Of a DNA stretch of 64,000 nt, positions 9,726 through 56,232 are shown one piece after another. How positions within the stretch are numbered: the first letter of the stretch is position 1; every line of letters begins with the position of its first letter. Under the pieces are notes generated by a model. It did no database searches. It was given only the letters and a program-made list of their open reading frames with translations, and had not been told where the DNA came from. The position numbers and the translations under genes are program-made. This stretch comes from Emcibacter nanhaiensis (GTDB lineage: Bacteria; Pseudomonadota; Alphaproteobacteria; Sphingomonadales; Emcibacteraceae), in NCBI RefSeq assembly GCF_006385175.1, contig NZ_VFIY01000014.1, positions 62,001 to 126,000 on the forward strand. Direction: 5' to 3'.

Positions 9726-9730
9726 GATCT

Positions 9731-11062: not shown

Positions 11063-11072
11063 TTCACCCTCC

Positions 11073-14256: not shown

Positions 14257-14264
14257 ATTTTCTC

Positions 14265-14884: not shown

Positions 14885-14888
14885 CTGA

Positions 14889-15914: not shown

Positions 15915-16359
15915 GATCCGCCTCCCCGGGATTCAGGGAAAATAGATCTGTCTCCTCCCCCTGCAACTGCTCCATGACGCGCGCCGTGAGGCCATTTCCT
16001 TCGGCGAGGCGACGCCCGAGAAAGGTCACGAACTCCTCAAACCTCTGCTGTCCCTTGGCACTGGCTGCTTCCCTGTCCTCCACCGGCAAAGGCGGTGTCA
16101 TGGTGAGGAAATAGCGAATAAAAAGCGCCTTGGTTTCCAGAAGAATGGTCAGATCCCGCTCCAGTCTGCCAAACTGTCGCCCTAGCCGATCCAAACGGCG
16201 CAGGATCAGTTCCTCGCTCCCGGGAAGACCGCCTTCCTCAAGATATTGCCCAAGCGCGAGTTCAACCAGGCCGGACCTCGAAACACCGCTTTTGGCAGCG
16301 AGCCTGTCAACCTTACGAAGTTCTTCCGGTTGCACGTAAACATTGATGCGGGGTTTCAT
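15898..16359 (-). CDS. CopG-like ribbon-helix-helix protein of Trb operons
   Basis: The N-terminus (MKPRINVYVQPEELRKVDRL) is a ribbon-helix-helix DNA-binding motif; the remaining 100 residues are helical. Such a gene between traG and trbB is a standing feature of Trb-type integrative elements. It may repress the operon or be a relaxosome accessory protein; the sequence does not decide. It overlaps traG by four bases and trbB by 17. Confidence 0.82.
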   Translation of the reverse strand: MKPRINVYVQPEELRKVDRLAAKSGVSRSGLVELALGQYLEEGGLPGSEELILRRLDRLGRQFGRLERDLTILLETKALFIRYFLTMTPPLPVEDREAASAKGQQRFEEFVTFLGRRLAEGNGLTARVMEQLQGEETDLFSLNPGEADHAGGA

Positions 16360-18470
16360 GAGCGTCCTCCCTTGTCGGCCGGACCGGAGTTTTTATCGCC
16401 TGACCTCTTCACAAAAGACGTCCCTCCGCTGAATGGCAGGTTGAACTGTCCGCCGTTGGAGGTCGATTTCCGCGGGAAATGTCGGTCCAGGCAGAGATCC
16501 GGAAATTCAAACCCGACATCCCCGGCATCGTCTTTTCCCTTTGAGTTTCCAGGGTCATCCTCCCCCGCCGGGCCTGTGCAAGACTCCTTTCGGTTCTCCC
16601 GTCCCTCTACAGAAAGTTTGTCGGACACCGATGCTTCCAGGCCTTTCCAGTCATTTTGCGGCTCGCTGTCATTTTGTGGCTCGCTGTCATCGTCCGGGTT
16701 CTGACAACAGGGCGGTAGAGATCTCTCTATGAAATTTCTGTCGGTAAAATATTTGATCTTGTTTGCCAGTACCGGTTTCCGTCCGGAAATCTGGATAATC
16801 TCCTGACCCTCAGGCAGTTGCATGATTTCCCCGGGGGTCAGCAACTGTCGCGCCGTCTCCTGACTGGAAACCATGACATGACCGAGCCAGGGCGCCAAAC
16901 GGTGGCCGGCGTAATTACGCTGATGCCGCCGTTCCGTCATGCTGCCGAGGCTGTCCGAAACCCTCTTCGCGGTTCTCTCGTCGTTGGTGGCAAAGGCGAT
17001 CCGGATATGGCAGTTGTCCAGAATTGCGCTGTTTTCGCCATAAGCTTTGACGATCTGGTTTAAACTCTGGGAGATCATGAAGGCTCTAATTCCGTATCCG
17101 GCAAGATAGGCCAGCGCCGTCTCGAAAAATTCGAGCCGCCCCAATGCGGGAAATTCATCCAGCATCAGAAGCAGTCGACTGGTTGTTGACCAGCGGCTCT
17201 TTCTTTTGCCCGGGAATTTGAAAATTCCGAAGATCCCACGGCTGGCGGGCGATGCTGTCGCAGTCTTCGTCGCCAGATCCACTTCCTCGGTCAGGCGGCG
17301 ACCAATCTGATTAAGGATCAACCTGATCAGCGGCCTTGTCCGGCTCAAATCCCCTGGCGGGACGACCAGATACAGGGAGACCGGTTTTCCCGTACGGACC
17401 AGGTCTCTGAGCACAAAAGATGACCGAGCCGTGACCTTACTGACCACCGGGTCCCGATAGAGCGTAAGAAAACTAAGCGCCGTGCTGAGCACACCGCTTC
17501 GCTCATTTTCGGTCTTGTTCAGGAGTTCTCGGGCCACAGCGGCCACAACCGGGTGAACGCCGGGTTCCTCACCACCTTGCCCCAGATGATCCGTATGCAG
17601 CATTTTCTCCAGAGTGGCTTCAAACGGGCAGGAAGGATCGCTGAGAATTTCCGCCACCCGGGCAAGAGTCTTCTCCTTCTCCGCATAAAGGACATGCAGA
17701 ATAACGCCCACCAGAAGAGAGTAGCTTGTCTTTTCCCAATGATTGCGACGATCCAGCACACCCTCCGGATCAACAAGGATGTCCGCAATATTCTGCACAT
17801 CACGCACCTCATTCTGCCCCTTGCGGACTTCCATGAGCGGGTTGAAACAGGCACTCTCCGGATCTGTCGGATTAAAATAAAGACATCTTGAAAAGCGTGA
17901 TCTCCAGCCGGAGGTCAGCCGCCAGTTCTCCCCCTTGAGATCATGGACAACCACACTTCCCAGCCAGGTCAAAAGCGTCGGCACGACCAGACCCACGCCT
18001 TTGCCCGCCCGGGTTGGCGCAAAAGCCATGACATGCTCCGGACCATCGTGACGCAGATAAGCCCCGGCGAACCCGCCAAGGACGACACCTTTCTTTCTGA
18101 AAAAACCTGATCTCTTCAACTGCTTTTTGGTTGCCCAGCGTGAAGACCCAAATGTCGTCGCATTCTTCTTTTCCCGGGCGCGCCAAAGAGACCCCAGAAT
18201 GGCGGCAAAAACCCCGATCAAGCCACCAGAGGCCGCAAGGGTCCCGGCTTTAAGAAACACTATTGGCGCATAGCTGCCATAGGCGTACCACCATTCAAAA
18301 AGCCTCCAGGGGAGATACACAGGAATGGAAAACAACTGGACCCATGGCTCCCCCAGTCTCATCTGATATCCCAGCATATGTGCCGCCCACTGGGTGGCAG
18401 ACCATATCGTGAGGAGCACGATGAGAAAGGTCAGGAGTATCTGTCCGAGCAGGATTTTTGTAGGTGTCAT
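16356..18470 (-). CDS. traG: Coupling protein TraG (VirD4 family)
   Basis: This type IV secretion coupling ATPase of 704 residues has N-terminal membrane helices (about 8-28 and 72-92), Walker A FAPTRAGKGVGLVVPTLLTW (about 150) and Walker B LLLMLDEFPALGRLEF. The C-terminal 120 residues are polar and repetitive (DDDSEPQNDSEPQND) and are likely disordered. It docks the relaxase-DNA complex onto the Trb channel. It is preceded by a gap of 324 bases from the relaxase gene. Confidence 0.95.
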   Translation of the reverse strand: MTPTKILLGQILLTFLIVLLTIWSATQWAAHMLGYQMRLGEPWVQLFSIPVYLPWRLFEWWYAYGSYAPIVFLKAGTLAASGGLIGVFAAILGSLWRAREKKNATTFGSSRWATKKQLKRSGFFRKKGVVLGGFAGAYLRHDGPEHVMAFAPTRAGKGVGLVVPTLLTWLGSVVVHDLKGENWRLTSGWRSRFSRCLYFNPTDPESACFNPLMEVRKGQNEVRDVQNIADILVDPEGVLDRRNHWEKTSYSLLVGVILHVLYAEKEKTLARVAEILSDPSCPFEATLEKMLHTDHLGQGGEEPGVHPVVAAVARELLNKTENERSGVLSTALSFLTLYRDPVVSKVTARSSFVLRDLVRTGKPVSLYLVVPPGDLSRTRPLIRLILNQIGRRLTEEVDLATKTATASPASRGIFGIFKFPGKRKSRWSTTSRLLLMLDEFPALGRLEFFETALAYLAGYGIRAFMISQSLNQIVKAYGENSAILDNCHIRIAFATNDERTAKRVSDSLGSMTERRHQRNYAGHRLAPWLGHVMVSSQETARQLLTPGEIMQLPEGQEIIQISGRKPVLANKIKYFTDRNFIERSLPPCCQNPDDDSEPQNDSEPQNDWKGLEASVSDKLSVEGRENRKESCTGPAGEDDPGNSKGKDDAGDVGFEFPDLCLDRHFPRKSTSNGGQFNLPFSGGTSFVKRSGDKNSGPADKGGRS

Positions 18471-18794
18471 TTTCAGTTCCCTGTCTTAAAGGTTCTGAAG
18501 AAATGAGACCGTCCAGAGAAGATCAAATCAAGGCCTTTTTCCTTACATGACAAAGGGTTATGATCACAGAGAAACACACCGACCCGAGGAGATGTTTTCC
18601 GGACTCCAAAGAAATGCAAAGACGTCATAAAAAAGATGAAGTATCGAGCTCCGATTTCCCTGAAATACGGAGAAAAAACTCGCGGGCCCGGACGATTTTT
18701 GAATCGACTCGTCTCTGACCCGTTGATTTAAGGGCGTATATTTTGAGAAATTTTGGGAAGAACAGACCGCCTTAAGGACCGGTCTTTTCTCCGG
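18471..18794. other. Intergenic gap inside the transfer operon (possible oriT)
   Basis: This 324-base non-coding gap between traG and the relaxase gene is the only large break in the otherwise tightly packed transfer operon. It holds no convincing reading frame. It is AT-richer than its neighbours on the traG side and has short inverted repeats (AGACCG...CGGTCT at 18766-18787). A nic region is plausible here but no consensus could be assigned by eye. Confidence 0.3.
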
Positions 18795-20558
18795 CTATTT
18801 GATCTGTCGTCCGCTCAAGGCGCGACCGAACGCCCTGCCGATCTCCTTGCCCCGATATTTTTCAAGGCCAGGCGTCCAGGGGACAAAGCTGAAGTGGTCT
18901 TTTCCTTCAATAAAAGCATAGACGCCACTGACGAGATGAAGTCTTTTCACATATATGCCTTTTGCGGGTGAGGCTCTGCTTTGAGAAACCCAGACCTTTC
19001 CATTTTCCCCGGAGATCTTCTCCGCGACCCTTTCCAGCTCCCGCCGGGTCAGAAGTCTGGAAATCCGTTTCTTCGCATCTCCGGGAGGGTGCTCCTCCAG
19101 GTCACTTTCGGAGACAAAGTTCATTTGGATAAGCCATTGTCGGCGCGCCCCCAGCATCTGTCCCACGCGCTTGCCAAATCCCCTGCCAGATGCGGGAAAT
19201 CTCTCTTTCGCCAGCAGCAAACGATCCAGCCAGCCATATCCCTCCGCCTCCACAAGCTTCTCCAGCGGAACAGGTGAAGCGATTGTCAGATGCACGGGAA
19301 GGTCCCTGCTTCTTTTTTCAGACAAGGCATCCGGTTTATTGTTCAGGGCCGGTTTTACGGTCACGATCATCCCCTGGCGTAAGGTCGTCGGGTAGACAGA
19401 CTTTCCTCTGTCCACATACCAGCGGCAACCGTCAACGCCGTCCAGGATCAGATATCTTCTGTCCTCCAGTTCCTCGGACAGTCCAAGGCTCGACACCTCT
19501 CCGGTAATGCCGTCCCGGTGGCGTGCCGGATCAAATATGGATACATTCTGTTCCAAAGGTGACAAACCGGACCTTGTCATGTCCCGGTGCAGTGTTTTGA
19601 TTATATCACCCCGCTCTCCAAGACGTTTGAGAATGTCCGTAAAATTATCCTCCACGCGCCAGATATTACCCGGCAGTGAATGAGCGAGACCAAGCTTCTC
19701 CAGTTTCTTCAAGCGCTCTGTGAGAAATGATTTCTGGCGACCGCCAGCCTCCGACAGGACCAGACCATCCTCACGCTTTTTCCCAAGCCGGGAAATCATG
19801 CGATCCAGATCGGTGAGGCGTTCCAAGCCGATCTGACGACGGCGCTGCTGCAGGATCTCGAGTTCGGTCCTCGGCCCAAGCTCCAGGCTCATCAGTTCGG
19901 AGGCCCGCCGACGCATGCCGTAAGACATATAGTTTCGGGCAATCACAAGATCCTCTCCCGCCTGATCCACGCCACGCAGGATCACATGTGTATGGGGATG
20001 CGCCGTGTCAAAGTGATCAACCGCCACCCAGTCCAGCGAGGTATGGAGGTCCTTTTCCATCACCCCCATTAATTGCCTGATAAACGGTTTCAAATCCTCG
20101 AGCCTGGTCGCATCTTCCGGGGAAACAATAAAACGAAACTGATGGCGGTCACCGCGGCATCTGTCCCGAAATTCGCCCAGCTCAATATTTTCTCTTTTTT
20201 TGTCATAGGCGCCAGCTTCCAGACCGTCGCGCCCGACACCTTCGCGTTGGATATAGCTTAAGTGTGTGGACGCCCGGGAAAACCCCTTGCCGGAGAGACG
20301 TACAATACGGCTTTTGATGATGACCCGGCGCGCATATGGTTGCGTTCCGCTTGCCCGGTTTCGATATGTCATCATCTTCGAGGCCCAATGGCCCCGACCG
20401 ATCCGGTCCCCCTGGAAACCTGATTTTTTCTTTTGCCCTTGCGGCCAATCAAGACCATGAGAAAGAGACCTTACTTTCCCCCTGATTTTTTCACGGAAAC
20501 TCCGCCCCCTGTCCCGCGGCGGGCCCGGTCGCGGCAAAAATTCCCGATCATCCGTCAT
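18795..20558 (-). CDS. Relaxase, VirD2-like with DUF3363-type C-terminus
   Basis: A 587-residue relaxase of the kind found in Trb integrative elements. The catalytic half contains SRASTHLSYIQREG near residue 95 and the metal-binding histidine motif DHFDTAHPHTHVILRG near 205. The nicking tyrosine is probably one of those in SYIQREG or upstream. The C-terminal half matches the large domain of these relaxases and contains the RGMIVTVKP-like conserved stretch (as QGMIVTVKPA). It nicks oriT and pilots the strand. The start overlaps traF by 11 bases. Confidence 0.9.
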   Translation of the reverse strand: MTDDREFLPRPGPPRDRGRSFREKIRGKVRSLSHGLDWPQGQKKKSGFQGDRIGRGHWASKMMTYRNRASGTQPYARRVIIKSRIVRLSGKGFSRASTHLSYIQREGVGRDGLEAGAYDKKRENIELGEFRDRCRGDRHQFRFIVSPEDATRLEDLKPFIRQLMGVMEKDLHTSLDWVAVDHFDTAHPHTHVILRGVDQAGEDLVIARNYMSYGMRRRASELMSLELGPRTELEILQQRRRQIGLERLTDLDRMISRLGKKREDGLVLSEAGGRQKSFLTERLKKLEKLGLAHSLPGNIWRVEDNFTDILKRLGERGDIIKTLHRDMTRSGLSPLEQNVSIFDPARHRDGITGEVSSLGLSEELEDRRYLILDGVDGCRWYVDRGKSVYPTTLRQGMIVTVKPALNNKPDALSEKRSRDLPVHLTIASPVPLEKLVEAEGYGWLDRLLLAKERFPASGRGFGKRVGQMLGARRQWLIQMNFVSESDLEEHPPGDAKKRISRLLTRRELERVAEKISGENGKVWVSQSRASPAKGIYVKRLHLVSGVYAFIEGKDHFSFVPWTPGLEKYRGKEIGRAFGRALSGRQIK

Positions 20559-21764: not shown

Positions 21765-22472
21765 ATGATTGATTTTTCTCTTATTGAAGAATTCGTATAT
21801 CTCATAGAACAAACTCAAAACCTGAAAAGCTTGACAGACTTGTTTGGCTCTATCATTCGGCAGTTTGGCTTCGACAAACATACCTGCCTTTCTTCCGTCG
21901 ACCTCAATCATCCTCCTGCCAATTCCATTCTCATTTACGAATTTCCGGAGATCTGGGTAAATCGCTACAAGGAGAAGGAATATTTTAAGCACGACCTTGT
22001 CCTTAAAAGTATTTATCGGGAGGCGAAGCCCCTCAAGTGGCTCGATCTGGAGGAGATGGACGACATCAATCAAAAGATATTTTATGAAGCCCAACAATTC
22101 GGCATCCGTAATGGCATGACGATCCCCCTGATGATGCCCGGGCATTACCCCTGTACAATCAATATCGCGGGCGAGTTTGTAGATGTGGATCCCCGCGCCT
22201 ATTCATCCCTTCACCTTCTCGCCGTCCACTATTTCAATCAGCTCCTGCTTCTGGGCCAATCAGATTTTGCGCCCCCGGCCCTTACCCCAAGACAAAAGGA
22301 ATGTCTGTACTGGGCGGCCCAGGGCAAAAGCGACAGTGATATAGCAGAAATCCTTGCCATTCGCGCCCGCACCGTAAATTACCACATTGAAAAAGTCCGC
22401 GAGAAATTTGACGTGCGGACCCGCAGCCAAAGCATCGCACTGGCAATCTCCTGCGGCCTGCTTCTGCCATAA
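21765..22472 (+). CDS. luxR: LuxR-family AHL-responsive regulator
   Basis: The protein has 235 residues. The N-terminal autoinducer-binding domain (about 15-165) retains the family pattern W..RY...Y..HD, then PLKW and GIRNGMTIPL; the usual Pro after the Asp is Leu. The C-terminal LuxR helix-turn-helix (about 172-232; LTPRQKECLYWAAQGKSDSDIAE) is intact. It is expected to bind an acyl-homoserine lactone made by the next-door synthase and to act at the two lux boxes. There is a 245-base gap before luxI. Transcription runs away from the transfer operon. Confidence 0.92.
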   Translation: MIDFSLIEEFVYLIEQTQNLKSLTDLFGSIIRQFGFDKHTCLSSVDLNHPPANSILIYEFPEIWVNRYKEKEYFKHDLVLKSIYREAKPLKWLDLEEMDDINQKIFYEAQQFGIRNGMTIPLMMPGHYPCTINIAGEFVDVDPRAYSSLHLLAVHYFNQLLLLGQSDFAPPALTPRQKECLYWAAQGKSDSDIAEILAIRARTVNYHIEKVREKFDVRTRSQSIALAISCGLLLP

Positions 22473-22642
22473 CAGTCAGCCCTTTCAGGTAATGGAAAAA
22501 CATCTTTTTCAGGTAGTGCCCACACTGTCGGCCCGGACGTCTCGCGACGACAAGCAACCCCGATTTTTCACATAAAACTCCATTCCTCTTTTCGCCAGAC
22601 TGAACCTCCAGCCGGTTACCCTCTCCCCTGCTGATTGTCGTC

Positions 22643-22664
22643 AACCTGTCCCGCTATACAGGTT
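22643..22664. promoter_or_regulatory. lux box upstream of luxI
   Basis: AACCTGT-CCCGCTAT-ACAGGTT, a perfect inverted repeat 54 bases upstream of the luxI start. It implies the usual positive feedback on signal synthesis. Confidence 0.85.
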
Positions 22665-22717
22665 TAATCGAGACGGCCTTATCTAACACTGTCTCCCGCC
22701 AGGAAACGGGAGCTGCA

Positions 22718-23365
22718 ATGATTACCATCATCAATAAAGACAACAGACATCTTCACAAACCGGAACTGGATGAAATGTTCAGGCAAAGACACAGAGTCTT
22801 TGTTCAGGAACTTGGCTGGTCCCTTCCCCTGGCGCACCAGGGGAGAGAAAAGGACCAGTTCGACAGGGAAGATACCCTCTATATTCTGCTTCGCGACAAG
22901 TGGGGGAATTTGATAGCGTCAAAACGCCTGATCCCCACAGTGAGACCTCATCTCCTGTCTGACATCTTCCCTCACTTGGTTGAACAGGAAGTCCCGCGAG
23001 CAGCCAGTATCTGGGAAAGTTCCAGGACCTGTGTTCCCCAGGAACACAGACGATGTGGGGTGACAAAAAAACTTTTTCTGGCCATGATGGAAACCGCACT
23101 TCTGATGGGTATTGAAAAAATTACCTTTGTTTCTTCAACGTCTGTTTATCCGATAATCCTGGATGCGGGCTGGACCATTCAGCCCCTTGGTCTCCCTCAA
23201 AAAGATCTGGACGGTGAAGAAATTATCGCCGCGGCCATTGAAGTCAGTCCAAGCTCGCTTCGACAGATGCGCCGGAGATATTCCAGCACCCATGTGGCGA
23301 TACTCTCCCTGCCCCTGGACTATCATATGCAGCCAGTTCAACCTGTTCGGAGCAGTAATGCATAA
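22718..23365 (+). CDS. luxI: Acyl-homoserine-lactone synthase, LuxI family
   Basis: The protein has 215 residues and all family hallmarks: RHRVFVQELGW near residue 25, D..D before the second strand (DQFDRED), ASKRLIPT near 70, and WESSR near 102. It makes an AHL from S-adenosylmethionine and an acyl carrier; the chain type cannot be predicted here. Its last codons overlap the start of the following gntR gene by eight bases, so that regulator is translated from the AHL-induced message. Confidence 0.95.
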   Translation: MITIINKDNRHLHKPELDEMFRQRHRVFVQELGWSLPLAHQGREKDQFDREDTLYILLRDKWGNLIASKRLIPTVRPHLLSDIFPHLVEQEVPRAASIWESSRTCVPQEHRRCGVTKKLFLAMMETALLMGIEKITFVSSTSVYPIILDAGWTIQPLGLPQKDLDGEEIIAAAIEVSPSSLRQMRRRYSSTHVAILSLPLDYHMQPVQPVRSSNA

Positions 23366-24044
23366 ACCCTCCAAACATCCTGTTTTTGACAGACTATACA
23401 GGCGGCTCAAATATGAGCTTTTGAATTTCAAATTTGCCCCCCACATCCGTCTGAATCTGGAGCAGATAGCTGACAATTATGACGTCAGCACGATCCCCGT
23501 TCGCGAGGTCTGCAGGCGGTTGAACGCAGAGGGGTTGCTCCACCATATTCCCGGGCGCGGCTATTTCTACAAACAAAAGACACTGGAAGACTTTCAAAAT
23601 CGACAGCAATTGACACTCTGGATTCTCCTGCTCTCCCTGGACAGGGCGGTACGAGCCGAAAAGGCCAGAAAACTCTTCGCCCGACAAATGCCTGTCACCC
23701 CCCTGCTGAGAAAAACCCAAAACACCCAGGAAGCGGAAATCCTTGTGGATACAACCGAGGTCTTATTTGGCCAGATTGCCCTGTTCGCGGACAACGCGCT
23801 TCTCCCGCCCCTCATAAAGCAGCAGAATGATCATCTGCGTGTGATCCGTCTCCGGGCATGCCTCCATTCTCCTGACCTGGCGGGTGAGCTAACTGAAATG
23901 TTGAAGTGTAATGCCGCCAAAGACTTCAGAAAACTGAGAAAGAGACTATTGCGATATCATGTCACGGAAAAGCGGCTTTTGCCCTCTGTCCTGCGGGAAC
24001 TCTCGAGACCCTCGCGATGCCCGGATATCAGCACCGGAAAATGA
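23358..24044 (+). CDS. GntR-type regulator 1, coupled to luxI
   Basis: This 228-residue protein has an N-terminal winged helix-turn-helix of the GntR type (about 12-75; LEQIADNYDVSTIPVREVCR, then GLLHHIPGRGYFY). A helical C-terminal domain of the FadR type, poorly conserved by eye, follows. ATG 23358 (GGAG upstream, overlap with luxI) is preferred over a long in-frame extension that would lie inside luxI. GntR-type genes accompany lasso clusters with isopeptidases in alphaproteobacteria. The gene's stop codon touches palindrome site 2. Confidence 0.82.
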   Translation: MHKPSKHPVFDRLYRRLKYELLNFKFAPHIRLNLEQIADNYDVSTIPVREVCRRLNAEGLLHHIPGRGYFYKQKTLEDFQNRQQLTLWILLLSLDRAVRAEKARKLFARQMPVTPLLRKTQNTQEAEILVDTTEVLFGQIALFADNALLPPLIKQQNDHLRVIRLRACLHSPDLAGELTEMLKCNAAKDFRKLRKRLLRYHVTEKRLLPSVLRELSRPSRCPDISTGK

Positions 24045-24060
24045 TATATTCACAATATAT
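24044..24060. promoter_or_regulatory. 7-3-7 palindrome, site 2 (between the two gntR genes)
   Basis: ATATATT-CAC-AATATAT, starting at the last base of gntR1 and 150 bases ahead of the gntR2 start. Candidate GntR operator, perhaps autoregulatory. Confidence 0.6.
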
Positions 24061-24209
24061 GCTCGCCAGACGAAAGAGTTCCCCCTACCGTTATTTGCCC
24101 AGTGAATATCGGGGTGTCACAGTCCGTTTCCCCGAGATCAGTTCTGTTCAAAGGGACATCAGTAAACGCTTGCAGATATTGTCACCGCTATGGGGAAAGA
24201 CGGCGGCCA

Positions 24210-24851
24210 ATGATAAAGCCAACGGAACAACATCATATTTTCTGTGTCCTGAAACGGCTCCTCCTGGAAGGAGAAATTCGCCCGGGAAGTCACATCACGC
24301 CAGCTGCGCTGGCCGATCAGTTCTTTGTCAGCATCACCCCCGTCAGGGAAGCCCTGTTGCAATTAACCAGTGAGGGACTGGTTAACTTCCTCCCCAACAG
24401 CGGTTTTTTCGCCCGGGAATTATGCCTCCCTGAAAATACAGACCTGTTAGAGGCGCAATCTCTCCTGATAGAAGCCATTCTTGCAGGTCAACAAAGCGCC
24501 AGCGAGGAAGCCCCTTTGAGCTATCCCCCGCCCCACAGAACAGCCGAAAAGCCGGAAAACCGCGATGGCAAAACCATAAACGAAGACATGCATTACCTTT
24601 ATCTCACCATTGCCTCCCTGTCCGGCAACGGGGAATGTCTGCGCTGGCTCAATTCAATAAATGAACGCTGCTGGCTCGTCAGCCGACGGCAACTGGAATA
24701 TTTCCCGGAACTCCACAGCAAGTTTATCGATCTTGAGAAATATTATCTCCAGAGAGAGATGGACAAATTGCCTTCAGCCTATCATGACTTCCAATTGAGC
24801 CGTCTCTCCCGCCTTCCCGATCTCTACAAGAAATTACAGGTCTCGGACTGA
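24210..24851 (+). CDS. GntR-type regulator 2
   Basis: This 213-residue protein has a clear GntR winged helix (about 8-70; ITPAALADQFFVSITPVREAL, GLVNFLPNSGFFAREL). The C-terminal region is helical with a poorly conserved effector domain. ATG 24210 is used because the longer frame from 24102 adds residues with no similarity to the family. It is paralogous to the preceding gene only in the DNA-binding part. Site 3 lies 15 bases after its stop, in front of the lasso B gene. Confidence 0.8.
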   Translation: MIKPTEQHHIFCVLKRLLLEGEIRPGSHITPAALADQFFVSITPVREALLQLTSEGLVNFLPNSGFFARELCLPENTDLLEAQSLLIEAILAGQQSASEEAPLSYPPPHRTAEKPENRDGKTINEDMHYLYLTIASLSGNGECLRWLNSINERCWLVSRRQLEYFPELHSKFIDLEKYYLQREMDKLPSAYHDFQLSRLSRLPDLYKKLQVSD

Positions 24852-24956: not shown

Positions 24957-25661
24957 ATGACCGAAGAATTCCACATCGCCGGACATATCTTTCCCGCCCT
25001 GACGGATCAGCATCTGGTCCTGCTGGACATTCATGCCGACAGCTATATCCTCGCCGGTCCGGACGAGAAAAAAGTCCTTGAAAATATCATAAAGAATACG
25101 GCCCCACAGCCGGGCAAGACCCTGACCGGTCTGCTCGAGCAAAATATTCTCACCACCGACCTGGACTGTGCGTTAAGAACAGACGGGCTGAGATCCCCTC
25201 TCTCCGTTGAGTATCTCCCCGCCCAGAATGAACGAATGAGATACAGCCTGGACCAGCAACGCACGGAAAAGCCGGTGAACATACTCAAGCTGTTATGGGC
25301 TTCTGCGCAAACTCTGGTGATGCGCAGATTTCTGCCGTTCGATAAAATGCTGGCGGTGGTTGGAAAACGAAAACAAAAAAGCCGTCACGACACAGAAGAA
25401 AACAGCTCTTCGCAGGAGATCGAAGATCTGCTGGATTTCTTCCGACGTTATCGGGTTCTCTTCTACACTCCAAAAGATCATTGCCTTTTTGACAGCCTGT
25501 GCCTGATCAATTTCCTGGCCCTGTTCAATATTTTTCCGGACTGGGTCTTTGCCGTCAGAATGGGACCTTTCGAGGCTCACTGCTGGGTCCAGAATAAACA
25601 GGATCTCTATAACGACACCCTGGCCCACTGCGGCAATTTCGCCCCAATACTCCTGTTGTGA
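24957..25661 (+). CDS. Lasso peptide biosynthesis B protein (fused B1-B2)
   Basis: The protein has 234 residues. The first 80 or so form a PqqD-like RiPP recognition element that binds the leader (LVLLDIHADSYILAGPDEKKVL). The C-terminal part (about 150-234) is the transglutaminase-like leader peptidase, with the cysteine in DHCLFDSL (C176), the histidine in FEAHCWV (H208) and an Asp shortly after. This fused B is usual in proteobacterial lasso clusters. It cuts the leader after the Thr-x position so that the cyclase can close the ring. Only 12 bases separate it from the cyclase gene. A second candidate start further upstream (24882) lacks a site. Confidence 0.92.
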   Translation: MTEEFHIAGHIFPALTDQHLVLLDIHADSYILAGPDEKKVLENIIKNTAPQPGKTLTGLLEQNILTTDLDCALRTDGLRSPLSVEYLPAQNERMRYSLDQQRTEKPVNILKLLWASAQTLVMRRFLPFDKMLAVVGKRKQKSRHDTEENSSSQEIEDLLDFFRRYRVLFYTPKDHCLFDSLCLINFLALFNIFPDWVFAVRMGPFEAHCWVQNKQDLYNDTLAHCGNFAPILLL

Positions 25662-25673: not shown

Positions 25674-27497
25674 GTGCTGCGCTTCATCGCCATCCTGTGG
25701 AATGCACATGACCCCGCCGCCAGCAGCGCAGCACAGACACAGATTGACCGAACTCTCCAAACTCCCTGGACAGCCCTTCTTCAGGAGAATGGCCTCTGCG
25801 TGATGACGAGGAAATCAAAACATGACTATTACAGACATTATCACTTGTCCGACCCCTCCGGTCCCGCGAAAGGCGTAATTCTGGGACGGCTCTTCTCGAA
25901 GTGTCAAAATTCTGAAGAGAATGCTTCAAAGGAGGAAGCCCCTCTCATCTCACTCTCCCGGCTCCTGGAGACAGAAGGAAAGTCGCTAACGGACAATTAT
26001 TGGGGCAATTACATTGCTTTCATTTCCCGGGGATCAAATAATTATGTTCAGCTTGACCCGATGGGTACTTTCCCCTGCTTTATGACCCGAAGCTCCAACG
26101 TCACAACCATTTCCTCCACAATCCCGGACCTCCTTACGGCGACCGAAAGACCTTATTCCATAAACTGCCTGGTGATAGGGAGATACCTGAGATACGGCCT
26201 TGAGCGTTCCCAAACAGGATTAAGTGAGATCGGGAAAGTTCTCCCCGGGCAGTTCCTGAAATTTTCTCCCTTTGGCGTCACCATCAGTTACCCCTGGACC
26301 CCGCTCGACTATTGCAACCGGGGAGAGGACATTGATCCGTCCAGGGCAAGCGTGACGCTCCGACAGCTTCTCTGTTCAACAACTCAAGCACTGGCGGCGC
26401 CCCACAAAAAAATACTCCTGAAAATCGGGGGACTGGATTCCAGCTTGCTGTTGTCCTGTCTTTCGCACACACGGTCCGCAGATGATCTCTCCGCCATCAC
26501 CATATACCAGGATTGCCCTATGGGGGATGAACGCCGCTTCGTTCGGGAAGCAACAGGGAAGGTCTCGATCCCTCTCCTGGAATATCCCGAAACCGCGTCC
26601 AGGCTCGATGAGGACCAACTTTCCGCGGCACCCCTGACAGCCCTTCCCCTTTACTATGCGCAACACGGCCAGTTTGAAAAGCGCCTGACCGAGATCATCG
26701 AAGAAGAAAATTTTGATGCGATTTTCACCGGACATGCCGGCGATGAAATTCTCTATGCCGCCGCCACAAGTTATGGCGCAATGGACTATCTCTATAACCG
26801 CCTGTTCCCGATAAAGCTGTTCAGCTTCATGATGGAGGCCGCCCGGATGCAAAACAGATCCGTCTGGAGCCTGTTTCCTGAAATTCTCCGCAGTCGCTTT
26901 AACAAGCAGCCCTGGAGTTTCTACGCACAGCATGGTCATGGGAAAAGCAGGCTTCTTGATCCGGACCTCCAGGACCAGATCAGGCCCGGGAAAGACACAC
27001 ACCCCTGGCTCACCCGGGAGGCATCCATTCCACCGGGGAAGTATTACCATCTCTTCCCCCTGACCAAGGGGCTTTACGCACTGGAGTTTATGGGGCATGC
27101 GGAAGATCCGCCTCCCGTCATCATGCCCTATCTTTCCCAGCCCTTTGTTGAATATTGCCTAAGCCTGCCAAGCTGGCGCCTGACCTCTGACGGCATGGAC
27201 AGGGGATTGGCCCGCCTGGCCTTCAAAAACTTTGTTCCGGACAATATTCTGAAACGACGATCCAAATTCTCTTCCGCCTACTATCTTCGCACCCTGGTCG
27301 AATTGAATTTTGACTTTATTCGGGACACGCTGATGGATGGCCTGCTGGTGCAGAACAGGATCATCCATCGACAGTCCCTAGAGCAGCTTCTGTCGAAAGA
27401 GCAAGATACGGACACCCGGGATCAGGCCTGGCTTATAAATTTTCTGAACACCGAAATCTGGGCCAGAAAATGGGAAAATATGGGCCGCTTCCGTTGA
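25674..27497 (+). CDS. Lasso cyclase C (asparagine-synthetase-like)
   Basis: The protein has 607 residues. An N-terminal glutaminase-like fold without the nucleophilic Cys2 is followed by an ATP-binding synthetase domain with the P-loop variant KIGGLDSSLLLSCL (about 245) and the GHAGDEILYA motif (about 350). It adenylates the Asp/Glu side chain of the core peptide and joins it to the freed N-terminus, making the lasso ring. The GTG start follows AAGGAG. The precursor gene follows 152 bases later under its own palindrome. Confidence 0.93.
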   Translation: MLRFIAILWNAHDPAASSAAQTQIDRTLQTPWTALLQENGLCVMTRKSKHDYYRHYHLSDPSGPAKGVILGRLFSKCQNSEENASKEEAPLISLSRLLETEGKSLTDNYWGNYIAFISRGSNNYVQLDPMGTFPCFMTRSSNVTTISSTIPDLLTATERPYSINCLVIGRYLRYGLERSQTGLSEIGKVLPGQFLKFSPFGVTISYPWTPLDYCNRGEDIDPSRASVTLRQLLCSTTQALAAPHKKILLKIGGLDSSLLLSCLSHTRSADDLSAITIYQDCPMGDERRFVREATGKVSIPLLEYPETASRLDEDQLSAAPLTALPLYYAQHGQFEKRLTEIIEEENFDAIFTGHAGDEILYAAATSYGAMDYLYNRLFPIKLFSFMMEAARMQNRSVWSLFPEILRSRFNKQPWSFYAQHGHGKSRLLDPDLQDQIRPGKDTHPWLTREASIPPGKYYHLFPLTKGLYALEFMGHAEDPPPVIMPYLSQPFVEYCLSLPSWRLTSDGMDRGLARLAFKNFVPDNILKRRSKFSSAYYLRTLVELNFDFIRDTLMDGLLVQNRIIHRQSLEQLLSKEQDTDTRDQAWLINFLNTEIWARKWENMGRFR

Positions 27498-27563: not shown

Positions 27564-27649
27564 GAATGGTGTCCCTCTCCCGCAGCCCATAATCTGATGA
27601 AGTCGGTTCCGACCGACACTCACTTTCAACCCGAACTTAGGAGACTGTC

Positions 27650-27739
27650 ATGACTATTCTTGGACGTGCGTCAAGCGCCACAAAGGTCAAATCAACTTTC
27701 CCGCTGGAAGTTGATCTGCTTCCCGCCGAAGAAATCTGA
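27650..27739 (+). CDS. Candidate lasso peptide precursor (29 residues)
   Basis: The gene starts at ATG after TTAGGAG. The first 12 residues, MTILGRASSATK, match the end of alphaproteobacterial lasso leaders (pattern LGxAsxxT[RK], as in astexin and caulosegnin precursors), with Thr at the penultimate leader position. The predicted core is VKSTFPLEVDLLPAEEI (17 residues). Glu8 would close an eight-residue ring with Val1. Two features are odd: the first core residue is Val instead of the usual Gly, and the leader is only 12 residues because an in-frame stop lies just upstream of the ATG. A perfect terminator follows. Position directly after the cyclase supports the call. It could be a decaying gene. 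Confidence 0.68.
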   Translation: MTILGRASSATKVKSTFPLEVDLLPAEEI

Positions 27740-27757: not shown

Positions 27758-27785
27758 ATACGGGGAGACAATTGTCTCCCCGTAT
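27758..27785. terminator. Terminator after the precursor gene
   Basis: A perfect 28-base palindrome (ATACGGGGAGACAA and its complement) followed by TTTACG, between the rightward precursor and the leftward isopeptidase gene. It can serve both transcripts. Confidence 0.75.
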
Positions 27786-27818: not shown

Positions 27819-29981
27819 CTATTGGTCCTCGTTGAGGTTTTTCCTCATCTCTCTCCAGCGCCTGTATTGTTTCTGCTTTACCGGATCAGGATCTTCCTTT
27901 CCCTGCAGCCAGAATTTAAACCAGTCGATATGTCGCTTATAGACCGCTTGTCGCTGGGCCGGCTGCCATTTCACATGATAGGCGTCCGGGAAAATATACA
28001 TCTCAACCGGCTTACCGGCTTCCCTGAGCAAAGTATAATTCTGCATGGACAGCTGAAACTCCCGGTCCGCCGCCTGAACCAGAAGGGGTGTATTGATTTT
28101 CCCGGCATTTAATCCCAGGGAAAAAGCGGCGCTCTCCCCAACATAAGGCTTCCCCCCGAACAGGAAGTTCTTATATTTCCGGTTGATGGAAAGATTATGC
28201 ACATAATAGGCCATTGGATTAGAGCTGATGTAAGCCGCTGACGCCGCGGCAAAACGATCAGTAAATAATATTTCCTGTTCTACTGTACTGGCCCCATGGC
28301 TAAGCCCCGTAATACCGATATGTGCGGGATCGACAAGGCCACGCTCAACAAGTTTGTCCAGTATCCTGTTCAGGGCGATCAGCGTTCCCTGGTCAAAAAG
28401 AAGATAAGACCAGTGTTTCGCACTCATCTCGAGAAAATCGCCGGTCCGGGCGTAATTTTCCAGGTCGTCCGTCATATCGAAACTGAGCACCATAATTCCC
28501 TGTTGCACCAGAGCATGAATGGGGACTTCATCTCCCGTCCCCCCTCTCAGGAATCCCGCCGAGCGATATTGAACCACCACCAGAGGATAGGCCCTTCCCT
28601 TCTCATAGTTCGCCGGATAGACCAGATGCCCATAGGCGGTATTGCCCATGCCATCATCGGAAAGCAGTTTCTCGATTTTGGTAAATTTCATTTCTCTGAA
28701 TGCGGGATTTTCATCCACTAGCAGCTCTTTTTGTCCAGTCGCCAGATCAATGGAGACCAATTTTGCCGGAGAGGTCCAGCCCTCTTCCTTACAGATCATT
28801 TTCTGTTCACGACGCCTGCAGTCCTGAAGCAACTCATCCCCCCGGACAATGGTTCTGAGTTTTCCTGTCTCAGGGCTCCAGGCGTATAAGGCCATCAGAC
28901 TGTGATGAGATCCGTCGCGTCGCTGAAAGATCACTTTATTCAATTCCGGTGACCACCAGAATTTTCTCAATATCCGGCCCCGATAGCCCAGACAGGCCTC
29001 ATGGGCGCAAGTGATCCCCCTTCCCCCCACGACAACTTCCAGCCTGGAAAGAGGCGCAAATCCCTTAAAAATTTCAGGGTTCACATTTCTGAACTGAATT
29101 TTCGGGTCAACAGAGGACGCCTTGCCAACTTCTTCGACCTGCCCAGTATCCTTCGAAGTCTCAATAAAGGCAGTGGAGTTGCCAAAATAATTCTCGGTTT
29201 CTTTGTCAGTCACTATGCGTTCCTTGCCGCTCGTCACATCCAATATCCGCACGCGCAACTCACAGTGCCGGTCAGACTTCATTAAGTCCTCATATCCTGA
29301 CGAGGTCTGCGACGCTTTGCAGGTTGGCCAGATGGACCGGACATCACTGGAATAGACCGGACTAATATCGTCCTGGACAAGAACCCCCTCGCGGTTTTCT
29401 TTATTTACCTCTCGTTCCACATCCGCCCGGTCTCTCCCCACCGTGAAATAAAGCAGCCTGCCATCCCTGGAAAATTTCAAATTTTCCACATCGGCAGTGC
29501 TATGCGTGAGTTGGACCACCTTCCCTCCTTCTCTGTCCACGCGCCAGATTTGCACCGCGTCATCCATCTTCCGGGTAAAGGCTATCCAGCGACTGTCCGG
29601 AGACCAGGCCGCAGGTGTACCGACAAATTCCCCTACTTTCATACCGTCCGGGAATACCGGCAGATAAAACTCTCCGCCATCGGCAAGGAACCGTCCCCCT
29701 TGCCGCTCCTGATCTGTCTCCGGAAAAATATCCATTATCTTCCAGGCCAGTTTATAGGTGTTGGCTTCAGGATCGGCCTGCACAATCTGATAAGCCACAG
29801 ACTTCCCGTCCGGCGAAACCTCATAGGTCTTGATGTCTCTGATGGTCAGCAGGTCTTCTGTTGTCACAGCACGGGCCAGGCTCAAGTCAGGAAAGATCAG
29901 GGTCAGCAATAGAAGTATCTGCACCCCGTAAATCTTCCTTGCGAAAGAGCTCTTTCTTAAAATCTTCATTCCGATAGGCAT
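27819..29981 (-). CDS. Lasso peptide isopeptidase (S9 prolyl-oligopeptidase family, AtxE-like)
   Basis: The 720-residue protein starts with a signal peptide (cleavage near LSLARA). A seven-bladed propeller (about 40-430) is followed by an alpha/beta hydrolase domain with Ser561 in GLSHGAST, Asp639 in QAADREF and His669 in DAYHVKW. AtxE-type enzymes, always found beside lasso genes in this group, cut the isopeptide bond and linearise the cluster's own lasso peptide. The periplasmic location and the neighbouring TonB receptor suggest import and breakdown of the peptide. The start has AGGAG eight bases upstream. It is convergent with the precursor gene. Confidence 0.9.
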   Translation of the reverse strand: MPIGMKILRKSSFARKIYGVQILLLLTLIFPDLSLARAVTTEDLLTIRDIKTYEVSPDGKSVAYQIVQADPEANTYKLAWKIMDIFPETDQERQGGRFLADGGEFYLPVFPDGMKVGEFVGTPAAWSPDSRWIAFTRKMDDAVQIWRVDREGGKVVQLTHSTADVENLKFSRDGRLLYFTVGRDRADVEREVNKENREGVLVQDDISPVYSSDVRSIWPTCKASQTSSGYEDLMKSDRHCELRVRILDVTSGKERIVTDKETENYFGNSTAFIETSKDTGQVEEVGKASSVDPKIQFRNVNPEIFKGFAPLSRLEVVVGGRGITCAHEACLGYRGRILRKFWWSPELNKVIFQRRDGSHHSLMALYAWSPETGKLRTIVRGDELLQDCRRREQKMICKEEGWTSPAKLVSIDLATGQKELLVDENPAFREMKFTKIEKLLSDDGMGNTAYGHLVYPANYEKGRAYPLVVVQYRSAGFLRGGTGDEVPIHALVQQGIMVLSFDMTDDLENYARTGDFLEMSAKHWSYLLFDQGTLIALNRILDKLVERGLVDPAHIGITGLSHGASTVEQEILFTDRFAAASAAYISSNPMAYYVHNLSINRKYKNFLFGGKPYVGESAAFSLGLNAGKINTPLLVQAADREFQLSMQNYTLLREAGKPVEMYIFPDAYHVKWQPAQRQAVYKRHIDWFKFWLQGKEDPDPVKQKQYRRWREMRKNLNEDQ

Positions 29982-30172: not shown

Positions 30173-32923
30173 TTACCACTTTTTCGTCAATTGCAGGCTG
30201 ATCACACGTCCCATGGGACTGGCGTTGGCAGGGTCATAATTGATGTTGTAGCCAAAGTTGCCGGTCACATAGGGAGGGTCCTGGTTGAACAGGTTCAGGA
30301 CAATCAGGGAAAAGGCTGTATTCTGCAGTCCAACGGCGGACAGTTTATCGCCGGTTTCATAGCCGATATTGAGATCAAACGTGGTCCAGGACTTTACCGG
30401 CACCTCCGTCTCGCTTCTCCTGTCGGTATAGCCATCGGTGTAGTTGACAGACAGATTTGCTGAAAGGCCATCTTTCGCCCAGGACAGAATGGATTTCAGG
30501 CGCAGGTCAACGGGATAGTTGTAATTGTCCAGTTGATCGACCGGTTCATCTGTTTCAAGAAGTTTCTCTTCGAAATCCAGCAACCAGCTGCCACTCAGTG
30601 ACCAGTTGAAATTCCCAATGCCGGTATCGAAAGCATAGGCAATCTGGAAATCCAGGCCGCTGGTTTTGATGCTCGCCATATTACGCAGATTGCCATCGAC
30701 AAGGGCTTCCGCATCGGTGAACTCCGACGAGGACGTAAAGTTGCCGGAACGAGGTTGACCTGCCAGATACTCGAGATAGGCCGGATCGGGGGAATAGTCG
30801 ATCACAGATGCCCAGCGAGGATTGGTGAAACTGTCCAGATAGGCTTTGGCCGCGGTGATCCTGTTGTTGAACGAAATATTGAAATAGGTCACCTTCAGAG
30901 AAAGTCCCGGGACTTCAGCCGGCGTGTAATCAAACCCGGCAGTCCAGCTGGTTGCCGTCTCCGGCTGAAGCCGGGAGTTGTTGCCGCGCGTCAATACAGC
31001 CAGCGTCGCGCCGGAGGGAACTGCAGGATTTGGCAAATAGAGCAAATATCCAGCATTGCTGCTCTCATCCAGCTCACTGAACAACGGTGCCCGGAAAGAG
31101 GTCCCAAAGGTTCCCCTCAGGGCAACCCCTTCAACCGGTTGCCACAGCAGACCGACTTTGGGATCAAGAGTGTTTCCGAAATCACTGTAATCCTCATACC
31201 GGGCCGCAAGGGTCAATTCCAGCCGCCGCCCGAAAGCTCCACTGTTCTCCTCCCCGACAAAGGGGACAAAAACTTCACCGAACAGCGCTTTGACATCCCG
31301 TGCTTCATCAACAGCCTCGTCTTCCGGGTCCCAGAAGTTCTCATGTCGGAACTGACCTCCAACAGCCATTCTGACAGAGCCCCCCGGGATCGTACCAAGC
31401 GAACCATCCGCTTTCGCATCAACGGTCATCGTCCGGGAGTTCCGGCCAGTCAGGTCCCGATAGATGCGGGTATTCTCATTCAGATATCCGCCGTAGGCCT
31501 GGCTCTCACTGATGGTTCCAACAAGTTCCAGCTGCCAGTCCCTCAGGAAACCAAAACGGCCGCCAAGACTGCCGCCATACTGCTCCGTGTTACGGTCGAT
31601 CACTTCGGTATTGAGGGTCACAGTGTTGGTGCCGAGGCGCGTACTTTCCCGGATGGTATAATAGCCGTCCGCAAATATCTCACCCCGGTCCGCAACCTCC
31701 TGGCCGAAGTTCAGGAAGATACTTTGCCGTTTCTGACGGGGCAGAAGATCGGTTGGATCAGAGGCCTCAACAGAATAGTCCCGGTCATTCGCATCAAGAT
31801 GATCCCGTTTATAATATTCATAGGACGCCAGAGCGTGGCCCGTCTCCCAGGCCGAACCGAACACCTGCCCCACCTGGAATTCATCGAGATCCCCATCTGT
31901 CGCGGTTCCGTAGCGCAGCCTTGTTTCCGCGCCGTCAAAATCCTTGCGGAGCTTGAAATTAACCACGCCTCCGACGGCATCAGAACCGTAAATGGCTGAA
32001 GCGCCGTCCGTCAAAACTTCAACCCGGTCAATTGCAGTCAACGGGATCATGGAGATGTCGACAAAATTCCCCATTCCCACCGGTGCCAGACGACGCCCGT
32101 CGATCAGCACGAGGGTGGCGTCATTGCCGAGGCCCCGGAGGTTTATCCCCGTACCTTCGTTGATATTGATCCCATCCTCAGCGGTCACCAGGCCCGACGT
32201 GTTTTCCGCGATGCCACCGCCGAAGTTCTGGGGAAGCTGTTGAATGAACTGGGGCACCGATGACACACCGAGCCGGTCAATGTCCTCCCTGTCATATTTA
32301 AAGACAGGCGAAGCCGACCGACCGCCGCGGATGTTTGACCCGGTAACAACAATTTCCTCAAACTCCAGAACAGCCTCAGCCTCTTCAGCTAAACCTTGTC
32401 TTTTGCCCAAGCTTTTTTCCGGATCGGAGTCCATTTGTTTCAGAGAAGAGCGCTCGTCATCTCCAGCGGGATCGTGCGGACCCGTGACCGGGAAGACATA
32501 GACATTTCCCTTCTCATCCCTCCGGAACCCGAGGCCGCTTCCCGCCAGAATTTGATGCAGAGCCTGTTCCAGAGAAGCGGGTAAATCCGCCGTGGACGCT
32601 GTTTTGTTTGCTACGATGCCGGCATCGTAAATTATGTTTACTCCATGGTCTCTGGCCAGGGCCTGCAGGGCTTCCCCGAGAGGCTGCCGCTCCATGGAAA
32701 TGGTTTGTCCTTCATCTGCCCGTGCAGGAGCATTCACACCGGTTACGCCCACTGTCATTAACAGGGCGAGTGCCGTCGCCGCCCTCAGTGACAAGCGACC
32801 GTTACGACCGGCCACTGCTCCAAATTCTTTTACACCCGGTTCTCTATATTTACCGGGCCAAAAGCCCAGCTTCCCGAGTTGATTTTTATTGCGACGTATA
32901 TTTCCTTTGGTCTCCGTTCTCAT
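30173..32923 (-). CDS. TonB-dependent outer-membrane receptor with STN signalling domain
   Basis: The protein has 916 residues. A basic N-terminus is followed by a signal peptide (cleavage near NAPARA, about 68) and a secretin/TonB short N-terminal domain (about 72-130; GEALQALARDHGVNIIYD). A TonB-box-like stretch EEIVVTG and the plug domain (to about 330) come next, then a beta barrel ending in QLTKKW with the usual aromatic last residue. The STN domain implies contact with the FecR-type anti-sigma factor encoded divergently. It probably imports the lasso peptide or a fragment of it; the ligand is not shown by the sequence. Confidence 0.93.
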   Translation of the reverse strand: MRTETKGNIRRNKNQLGKLGFWPGKYREPGVKEFGAVAGRNGRLSLRAATALALLMTVGVTGVNAPARADEGQTISMERQPLGEALQALARDHGVNIIYDAGIVANKTASTADLPASLEQALHQILAGSGLGFRRDEKGNVYVFPVTGPHDPAGDDERSSLKQMDSDPEKSLGKRQGLAEEAEAVLEFEEIVVTGSNIRGGRSASPVFKYDREDIDRLGVSSVPQFIQQLPQNFGGGIAENTSGLVTAEDGININEGTGINLRGLGNDATLVLIDGRRLAPVGMGNFVDISMIPLTAIDRVEVLTDGASAIYGSDAVGGVVNFKLRKDFDGAETRLRYGTATDGDLDEFQVGQVFGSAWETGHALASYEYYKRDHLDANDRDYSVEASDPTDLLPRQKRQSIFLNFGQEVADRGEIFADGYYTIRESTRLGTNTVTLNTEVIDRNTEQYGGSLGGRFGFLRDWQLELVGTISESQAYGGYLNENTRIYRDLTGRNSRTMTVDAKADGSLGTIPGGSVRMAVGGQFRHENFWDPEDEAVDEARDVKALFGEVFVPFVGEENSGAFGRRLELTLAARYEDYSDFGNTLDPKVGLLWQPVEGVALRGTFGTSFRAPLFSELDESSNAGYLLYLPNPAVPSGATLAVLTRGNNSRLQPETATSWTAGFDYTPAEVPGLSLKVTYFNISFNNRITAAKAYLDSFTNPRWASVIDYSPDPAYLEYLAGQPRSGNFTSSSEFTDAEALVDGNLRNMASIKTSGLDFQIAYAFDTGIGNFNWSLSGSWLLDFEEKLLETDEPVDQLDNYNYPVDLRLKSILSWAKDGLSANLSVNYTDGYTDRRSETEVPVKSWTTFDLNIGYETGDKLSAVGLQNTAFSLIVLNLFNQDPPYVTGNFGYNINYDPANASPMGRVISLQLTKKW

Positions 32924-33263: not shown

Positions 33264-33806
33264 TTGTCGGAACAGAAATTTTCTGAGGATTGCGTGCAGC
33301 CGCCGGACTTCGACAGTCTCTACCGGACCTGGCTTTCTCCCCTGGTCTCATTTCTTGAGAGACGGGGCGCCGCAGGGCCGGACGTGGACGATCTCGCCCA
33401 GAATATTTTCCTTCGCTTTTTTAAACTCACACGCTCCGGCAAATATTCTCCAGAACCGCCCTTCCTGTTCCACATCGCAAGATATGCCCTGAAAGATCAC
33501 TTCAGGACGGAAGCACACCGACATACGAAAGATCATCTTCCTTTGGAGAATTTACCTGAAGGTAAAATTCCCCGCGACCGGCTGTCGCCGGACCGTGCGG
33601 TCGCTTCCCGGCAGGACTTGCGACGGCTTATGGAACAGATTGACCGACTGCCCGATGACGCACGACAGGTTCTTTTGCTGTATCGGTTCAGGGGGCTCCC
33701 CAAACGACAGATCGCCAGCCAACTTGGCCTGCCCCTCAAACGCATAAATCTTCTGCTGGAGCAGGCATTTTGCATCCTGATCGACGAGATGGAGGATGAC
33801 CTGTGA
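33264..33806 (+). CDS. FecI-type ECF sigma factor
   Basis: The protein has 180 residues: sigma-70 region 2 (about 15-85; DVDDLAQNIFLRFF) and region 4 (about 118-172; LPDDARQVLLLYRFRGLPKRQIA). The start is TTG with a G-rich site upstream. It partners with the overlapping FecR gene and the divergent STN-containing receptor to form a surface-signalling circuit that should raise receptor expression when the ligand is bound. Confidence 0.88.
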   Translation: MSEQKFSEDCVQPPDFDSLYRTWLSPLVSFLERRGAAGPDVDDLAQNIFLRFFKLTRSGKYSPEPPFLFHIARYALKDHFRTEAHRHTKDHLPLENLPEGKIPRDRLSPDRAVASRQDLRRLMEQIDRLPDDARQVLLLYRFRGLPKRQIASQLGLPLKRINLLLEQAFCILIDEMEDDL

Positions 33807-34870
33807 GCCATCTTCCGCGAAGTACAATCAAACTGTCGGTACAGGAACTCCGCCTTCAACAGGCCGCTGTCTGGCACAGACGAAACCTGGAAGGCACGAT
33901 GACTGAAGCTGACCAGGGTGAATTCGAGAAGTGGCTCATGGAAGACAAAGCCAACCTCCTAATCTATCAGAAGTGTGGGAAGCTGCAGAACAGGCTGGAT
34001 CAGTTGTTTCATGATCCGAACTTTCAGGATCAGCTCTCCGCTTCCACGGACATTTGTCAGGAGATACCCATACGTCGGAGAAGACTGAGATTGCCTCGAC
34101 TACAATCCTCCTGCTTCCACCGCCCCCTGGCATTGTCTCTCATTGCCCTCCTCGCCTTGCTGCTGCTCGCCGCCCCAAAGGAGGTCAGCATGCCGGTGAC
34201 CTATCAATCAATTGTCGGCGAACAGAAGATCGTTCTCCTTGAGGATGGATCGGAACTTACGCTCAATACCGACAGTCGCGTCTCGGTCAAATATCAGGAC
34301 CAGTCCAGATATATCTCTCTTCAAAAAGGGCAGGTTTACTTCAAGGTCGCCAAGGATCAGAAGCGCCCCTTCGTCGTGACTTTTCCAACAGGCCGGGTCA
34401 CGGCTCTTGGGACTGAGTTTGACATCAGCCTGAAAAACAAACAGGCCATTGTTCGTCTGTTGGAAGGAAAGGTAAAAGTAGAGCCGGAAGTATCATTGTC
34501 GAAGTCCCTTGCAAAAGTAACACCCGTATATCTGGAAGCAGATCGCAAGAGCGACAGGGCCACGGAAATCACTTTATCCGACAAGCATCCCTCTGCGGCT
34601 GTTCCCATCCCGAGACGAGGTGCCTCCGAATGGCGAAGTGGAAAAATCATTTTTGAAAATCAAAAGCTCAAGGAAGTGCTGGAGGAGATTAACAGATACT
34701 CAGCCAGGAGATTTGAACTTGCCGCTCCTGAGATTGGGGAGCGACGTATCAGTGGTATCCTCCCCACGTCTGCAACGGAGGCAATTCAAATACTCTGTGA
34801 ATTTCAGGGATTAAAACTGACTGATGACGGCAGCTATCTCATCCCTGCGAAAGCCTCCAAATTGAATTAG
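33803..34870 (+). CDS. FecR-type anti-sigma factor
   Basis: The protein has 355 residues. The cytoplasmic N-terminus (WHRRNLEGTMTEADQGEFEKWL) binds the sigma factor. One membrane helix (about 112-130; ALSLIALLALLLLAAP) is followed by the FecR domain (about 140-235) and a C-terminal STN-like domain (about 285-350). The GTG start overlaps the sigma-factor stop in GTGA. This is the last gene of the lasso cluster. Confidence 0.9.
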   Translation: MSHLPRSTIKLSVQELRLQQAAVWHRRNLEGTMTEADQGEFEKWLMEDKANLLIYQKCGKLQNRLDQLFHDPNFQDQLSASTDICQEIPIRRRRLRLPRLQSSCFHRPLALSLIALLALLLLAAPKEVSMPVTYQSIVGEQKIVLLEDGSELTLNTDSRVSVKYQDQSRYISLQKGQVYFKVAKDQKRPFVVTFPTGRVTALGTEFDISLKNKQAIVRLLEGKVKVEPEVSLSKSLAKVTPVYLEADRKSDRATEITLSDKHPSAAVPIPRRGASEWRSGKIIFENQKLKEVLEEINRYSARRFELAAPEIGERRISGILPTSATEAIQILCEFQGLKLTDDGSYLIPAKASKLN

Positions 34871-49422: not shown

Positions 49423-49495
49423 TTATTCTGTGAAAACAATGAGATATTGAGCATTTTCGGTTCTCTTTCGAGGGGTGATCGGCTATATAATATCC

Positions 49496-51022: not shown

Positions 51023-51193
51023 ATTCTAATAACACCGTCAAATTAACTTACAAGGCGCCTCAGACCGGACGCTTACAAATGGGGGGTGCCACGGCTCGGG
51101 TAACCCTTCAGGCAAGCGAGGCGGTTGGTACTGACGTGCGAGGGCGGCATCCTGTAGACTGTAAAAACCCCCAACATCCTGAAGGAGATCCCC

Positions 51194-53170: not shown

Positions 53171-53194
53171 CATCATTTTTGCAATTCTCTCATA

Positions 53195-56217: not shown

Positions 56218-56232
56218 TTTTTCACCTCTGTC

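Follow-up and report, generated by a model that had tools for sequence, protein, structure and literature searches.

A twelve-residue leader and a predicted Val1-Glu8 ring: a candidate minimal lasso peptide precursor in Emcibacter nanhaiensis

Is a lasso peptide precursor with an exceptionally short leader and a valine at the head of its core a minimal gene or a decayed one? The question is raised by gene A, an open reading frame found in a stretch of 64,000 nucleotides of Emcibacter nanhaiensis (contig NZ_VFIY01000014.1, positions 62,001 to 126,000), here called the window. Lasso leaders are given as 20-40 amino acids in reviews (PMC13352647), and among predicted lasso peptides the first core residue is Gly in 62%, Ala in 16% and Leu in about 7% of cases (PMC7549694). 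Metanodin was described in 2025 as the first lasso peptide with Asn1 (PMC12670498). From the letters of the window alone it had been noted that known leaders are longer and that known cores mostly start with Gly, and both statements hold; the accompanying list of rarer first residues (Ala, Ser, Cys or Trp) was incomplete, since Leu1 (PMC7549694) and Asn1 (PMC12670498) are known as well. The window precursor departs from the common pattern twice, with a leader of 12 residues behind an upstream in-frame stop and with Val1 in place of Gly, Ala, Ser or Cys, its clade relatives carrying Val, Ile, Leu, Phe or Trp. Both departures could speak for a gene rendered non-functional by truncation of its leader and loss of Gly1. 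The evidence gathered here argues instead that gene A very probably encodes a working lasso precursor of class II type, one whose leader is minimal by nature and whose ring is predicted to join Val1 and Glu8. The features of the locus are collected in Table 1.

Table 1. Position, strand and supporting evidence of the features at the lasso locus (coordinates of the window).
Feature	Position	Strand	Evidence
LuxR-type regulator and LuxI/TraI-type acyl-homoserine-lactone synthase, 5' of the cluster	21765..23365	+	PF03472, PF00765
Two GntR-like regulators, starts approximate (longer ORFs from 23163, 24102)	23361..24851	+	PF00392
Lasso B protein, RRE fused to B2 cysteine protease (ORF open from TTG 24882)	24957..25661	+	NF033537, E 2.7e-16, above cut-off
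Lasso cyclase C, asparagine-synthase-like, PP-loop read as KI-GGLDSS	25674..27497	+	PF00733, E 3.4e-17, above cut-off
In-frame stop TAG (27638-27640) within Shine-Dalgarno sequence TAGGAG, just 5' of ATG	27638..27645	+	Sequence reading
Lasso precursor gene A, 29 aa, MTILGRASSATKVKSTFPLEVDLLPAEEI	27650..27739	+	ORF from ATG 27650 to TGA 27739
12-residue leader MTILGRASSATK (Leu-9, Gly-8, Ser-5, Thr-2, Lys-1)	27650..27685	+	Aligned with 15 short-leader precursors
Predicted core VKSTFPLEVDLLPAEEI, putative Val1-Glu8 ring	27686..27736	+	8/16 identities to LKACFPLEFDMQPREC of the Kordiimonas cluster
28-base perfect palindrome ATACGGGGAGACAATTGTCTCCCCGTAT, hairpin, between A and the convergent isopeptidase gene	27758..27785	.	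Folding and exact check
Atxe2-family lasso peptide isopeptidase, GLSHG motif intact	27819..29981	-	NF033523, E 2e-173, 578.6 bits against cut-off 400
TonB-dependent receptor of the cluster	30173..32923	-	PF00593, PF07715, PF07660
ECF sigma factor and FecR pair	33264..34870	+	Domain matches; homologues in L031

Rereading of the window returned gene A with the start, stop and length originally claimed for it, as MTILGRASSATK/VKSTFPLEVDLLPAEEI (leader/predicted core). The in-frame TAG lies four codons upstream of the ATG and no ATG, GTG or TTG occurs between the two, so that the leader cannot be extended by starting farther upstream, as the sequence-only reading had held. Very short open reading frames arise often, and none of the NCBIfam models matched the 29-residue product; gene A might then be a chance frame, with the true precursor elsewhere in or outside the cluster. 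A leader profile covering positions -11 to -1, trained on 74 distinct precursors of other loci with the window excluded, gave gene A 20.6 bits, a figure that measures likeness to other lasso leaders and not processing, the training set having come from a motif-seeded search. The next best of the 530 window ORFs scored reached only 4.1 bits, with no other precursor in the window above background, and in 60 first-order Markov sequences of 64 kb the best matches averaged 4.4 bits with a maximum of 8.5. A short-leader profile, which contains gene A itself, picked out gene A alone from the 3.96-Mb genome (E 3e-9), no second precursor appearing at E values up to 10. Moreover, the precursors of homologous clusters occupy the same place. 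The profile, the genome search and the placement already contradict a chance frame, which we regard as extremely improbable; at the level of sequence, it is confirmed that the frame is more than chance and resembles a lasso leader.

The lasso isopeptidase gene, convergent to gene A, adjoins it as in Atxe2-type clusters, and gene A begins 152 bases after the end of C. In protein B, which joins an RRE to a cysteine protease, Cys176, His208 and the Asp of a YND motif are all present. Its N-terminal domain matches TfuB1 (6jx3, E 3.7e-4 in a profile search) and TbiB1, both RRE proteins solved with the leader bound, and the model of B was paired with 5v1v and 6jx3 at a Foldseek probability of 0.99 but with E values of 0.1-0.2. 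The reading frame of C contains no stops and its product, an asparagine-synthase-like cyclase, falls among the C proteins from other lasso clusters in a cyclase tree; its match to the lasso-specific model NF033535 (E 2e-12) lies well below the cut-off, at 46.5 against 525 bits, and C is therefore considered a divergent member. A PDB search with the C profile returned weak matches to asparagine synthetases only, and the structure model of C is of moderate quality (pLDDT 74.5, low at about 355-378), no structural claim being built on it. The gene for the TonB-dependent receptor is conserved next to C across homologous clusters, and GntR-like homologues are found 5' of B in most related clusters.

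Cyclase C was used as query against 298 genomes of the order and wider genome contigs. The nearest relative of the cyclase, at 38% identity, belongs to an uncultured Kordiimonas whose cluster has the layout of the window: LuxR, LuxI, GntR, B, C, precursors, then the convergent isopeptidase and TonB receptor genes. Two precursors with 12-residue leaders follow C in this cluster, MIDLGQASTETK/LKACFPLEFDMQPREC and MIDLGKVSVETK/IKPTVPAEFNGELRP. The window core is identical to LKACFPLEFDMQPREC at K2, F5, P6, L7, E8, D10, P13 and E15, and the score of this pair (40) was reached by none of 20000 shuffles, the next best other core scoring 10. A second Kordiimonadaceae genome carries, on another contig, MTNLGKVSVETK/VKSGFRIDLPFTPTKP, again with Val1-Lys2-Ser3, together with a sister copy, MVNLGKVSAETKQIKSGVSIELPFSPTRP, in which an extra Gln makes the first residue uncertain. 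Other precursors of the clade include MINLGKISQVTK/VEKITPMRE..., six cores with Ile or Val in one genome, and cores with Phe and Trp in Eilatimonas. A different precursor elsewhere in homologous clusters would have spoken against gene A; the nearest clusters carry a like precursor, likewise after C. A further observation concerns the precursor at L135 (1275-1364), MVNLGKVSAETK-Q-IKSGVSIELPFSPTRP, in which an additional residue separates Lys-1 from the IKSG start of the core; the first core residue is then Gln1, or else the leader has its Thr at -3.

Overall, 83 distinct precursors were found, 37 of them with leaders of 11-13 residues, mostly of the form MIxLGKVSxxTK, and 38 with leaders of at least 20. 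For 19 of the 37 no alternative start precedes the upstream in-frame stop, while in the remainder longer starts are possible and the leader length is a prediction. In the alignment of 15 short-leader sequences M-12, L-9, G-8 and T-2 are invariant, and the start Met is matched by a hydrophobic residue in the longer leaders of other clusters (e.g. DLIELGTASTDTK). Thr is present at -2 in the window precursor, and Glu8 falls within the core positions (7, 8 or 9) at which lasso precursors carry Asp or Glu. Aligned on Thr-2, the homologous precursors agree with the cut before Val13, the 12-residue leader and the eight-residue Val1-Glu8 ring first proposed. A real precursor with another register is conceivable: the core could start at Ser15 (STFPLEVD, closed Ser1-Asp8), which likewise places an acid at position 8, or the ring could close at Asp10, which the window shares with the Kordiimonas core. 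However, the alignment shows little or no variation at Thr-2 and Lys-1 ahead of position 13, and in IKPTVPAEFNGELRP, the second Kordiimonas core, no acid is placed to allow a register of the Ser15 type; the published range of ring sizes is 7-9 (PMC7549694). Another cut or ring is accordingly judged unlikely, with the choice of Glu8 as ring acid resting on known ring sizes, since Asp10 is likewise conserved in the nearest core. For the Val1-Glu8 product, with a 17-residue core and an 8-residue ring, the computed monoisotopic mass is 1881.013 Da ([M+H]+ 1882.02). As a separate observation, no usable acid occurs before position 10 in two cores, VNKGACFPPD... (L035, 4018-4125) and DQSPFTAPLD... 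(L076, 6083-6199); each would either form a 10-residue ring, larger than the published 7-9, or be a dead copy.

The first core residue of the short-leader precursors is Gly in 20, Ile in five, Val in four and Ala in two, with Leu, Phe, Trp, Asp, Thr and Ser once each. The hydrophobic residues other than Gly all fall within one cyclase clade of nine rows, which unites the window with Kordiimonas, Emcibacter, Eilatimonas and relatives of these (fork support 82; 100 for an inner clade of eight rows) and in which most copies have Val, Ile, Leu, Phe or Trp; two members (L048, L049) have Gly1, and a bulky first residue is therefore not obligatory in the clade. An odd first residue peculiar to the window is ruled out by this survey. 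Outside the clade, citrulassins are actinobacterial Leu1 lasso peptides in which a lasso cyclase accepts an aliphatic first residue; they differ from the window clade in having split B1/B2 proteins, long YxxP leaders and Leu, not beta-branched Val or Ile.

On whether gene A is minimal or decayed, the point left undecided by the sequence-only reading, these data favour the first and tell against the second. While the length of the leader and Val1 gave decay its plausibility, a like leader length occurs in 37 distinct precursors and a hydrophobic first residue throughout the clade, conservation of the ring residues extends to a relative of only 38% cyclase identity, B, C and the isopeptidase are open with their catalytic motifs present, and gene A retains its ribosome-binding site. 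A minimal precursor is thus preferred because leader length, gene place, ring residues and enzymes are conserved, and decay appears very improbable. Going beyond the single locus, it is likely that one clade of proteobacterial lasso synthetases, in the lineage of Kordiimonas, Emcibacter and Eilatimonas, represents a naturally minimal system, with native 12-residue leaders, rings closed on a branched or aromatic first residue (Val, Ile, Leu, Phe or Trp), a B-C-A gene order and a PP-loop without the serine of SGGLDS. It is exactly this PP-loop serine that one cyclase clade (17 of 76 rows, the window included) has lost and nearly all other cyclases retain, as seen in YDNVFHQL-GGLDSS against YNNVFHNLSGGLDSA.

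From what is known of the family, a mechanism can be proposed for gene A as a functional minimal precursor. The RRE domain of B would bind the short leader along its beta-sheet through Met-12, Ile-10, Leu-9 and Gly-8, and the B2 protease would read Thr-2 and cut after Lys-1, freeing Val1. Cyclase C would then adenylate Glu8 with ATP and join it to the amine of Val1 around the pre-folded tail; the resulting peptide would have 17 residues, eight of them in the ring. The presence of the isopeptidase and the TonB receptor suggests that the same or a related cell releases, takes up and linearises the product.

A link to leader recognition comes from a review of work on microcin J25. In an AlphaFold model, residues -12 to -10 of the McjA leader add a strand to the RRE sheet and Thr-2 occupies a pocket lying between the two domains of B (PMC11420955), so that -12 to -1, the residues making up the window leader, are just those for which contact with the leader peptidase of microcin J25 is reported. 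Severe truncation is tolerated, up to 28 of the 37 McjA leader residues being removable with product still detectable (PMC11420955); the minimal McjA leader works poorly, which counts against a minimal-leader reading (PMC11212047). Both systems have an 8-residue ring on Glu8 (predicted in the window) and leader contacts from about -12 onward, whereas microcin J25 has a native leader of 37 residues, Gly1, the transporter McjD and no isopeptidase. The class II astexins, caulosegnins and caulonodins with Atxe2 isopeptidase share with the window a fused RRE-protease B, cyclase C, isopeptidase, TonB receptor, sigma/FecR pair and a leader ending in Thr-2 with an LGxAS motif; the window differs in its 12-residue leader, Val1 (not Gly, Ala or Ser), B-C-A order and LuxR/LuxI upstream. 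Metanodin, a proteobacterial lasso peptide from a Steroidobacterales metagenome that was demonstrated by mass spectrometry, resembles the window precursor in its Thr-2 and in a first residue outside Gly, Ala, Ser and Cys, but this residue is Asn, not Val (PMC12670498). No natural leader this short, and no lasso cluster in Emcibacter, Kordiimonas or Eilatimonas, was found in the open-access literature, a weak form of evidence as most subscription papers fall outside that scope.

Should a product be formed, a lasso leader of the shortest workable length would already exist in nature, its 12 residues being just those modelled to touch RRE and protease, and the cluster would lend itself, as a compact and clean system, to work on leader recognition and to lasso synthesis in vitro. 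Furthermore, engineering would have a broader ring chemistry at its disposal with a cyclase that takes a beta-branched or aromatic residue in first place. Genome miners expecting longer leaders and Gly1 may overlook such precursors, a risk also noted for metanodin (PMC12670498). Short-leader precursors with Phe1 and Trp1 follow C in Eilatimonas milleporae DSM 25217 (L059; L039, 7877-7969 and 7657-7743), a cultured type strain and thus practical for testing this class. One complete genome (L035, 6753-7844 and 4018-4288) has six short-leader precursors flanking two B-C pairs, four of the six being near copies of IKKPxGVPDHLLxPDIFVEVPADGQ.

Some observations concern the surroundings of the cluster. 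LuxR and LuxI genes likewise stand beside clusters L031 (1829-3327), L037 (1503-3567) and L044 (11721-13206), and their adjacency suggests quorum-sensing control of lasso production; a literature search for a pairing of LuxR/LuxI with lasso clusters gave no match. A terminator scan found no T-run terminator after gene A and did not flag the palindrome in this interval, which is possibly a two-way terminator or an operator. By-eye reading of the translations placed conjugation-like ORFs (VirB/VirD4/relaxase-like) at 6767-20558, and ORFs resembling transposases and an integrase at 48680-56310; with these flanks, the cluster could be part of a mobile element.
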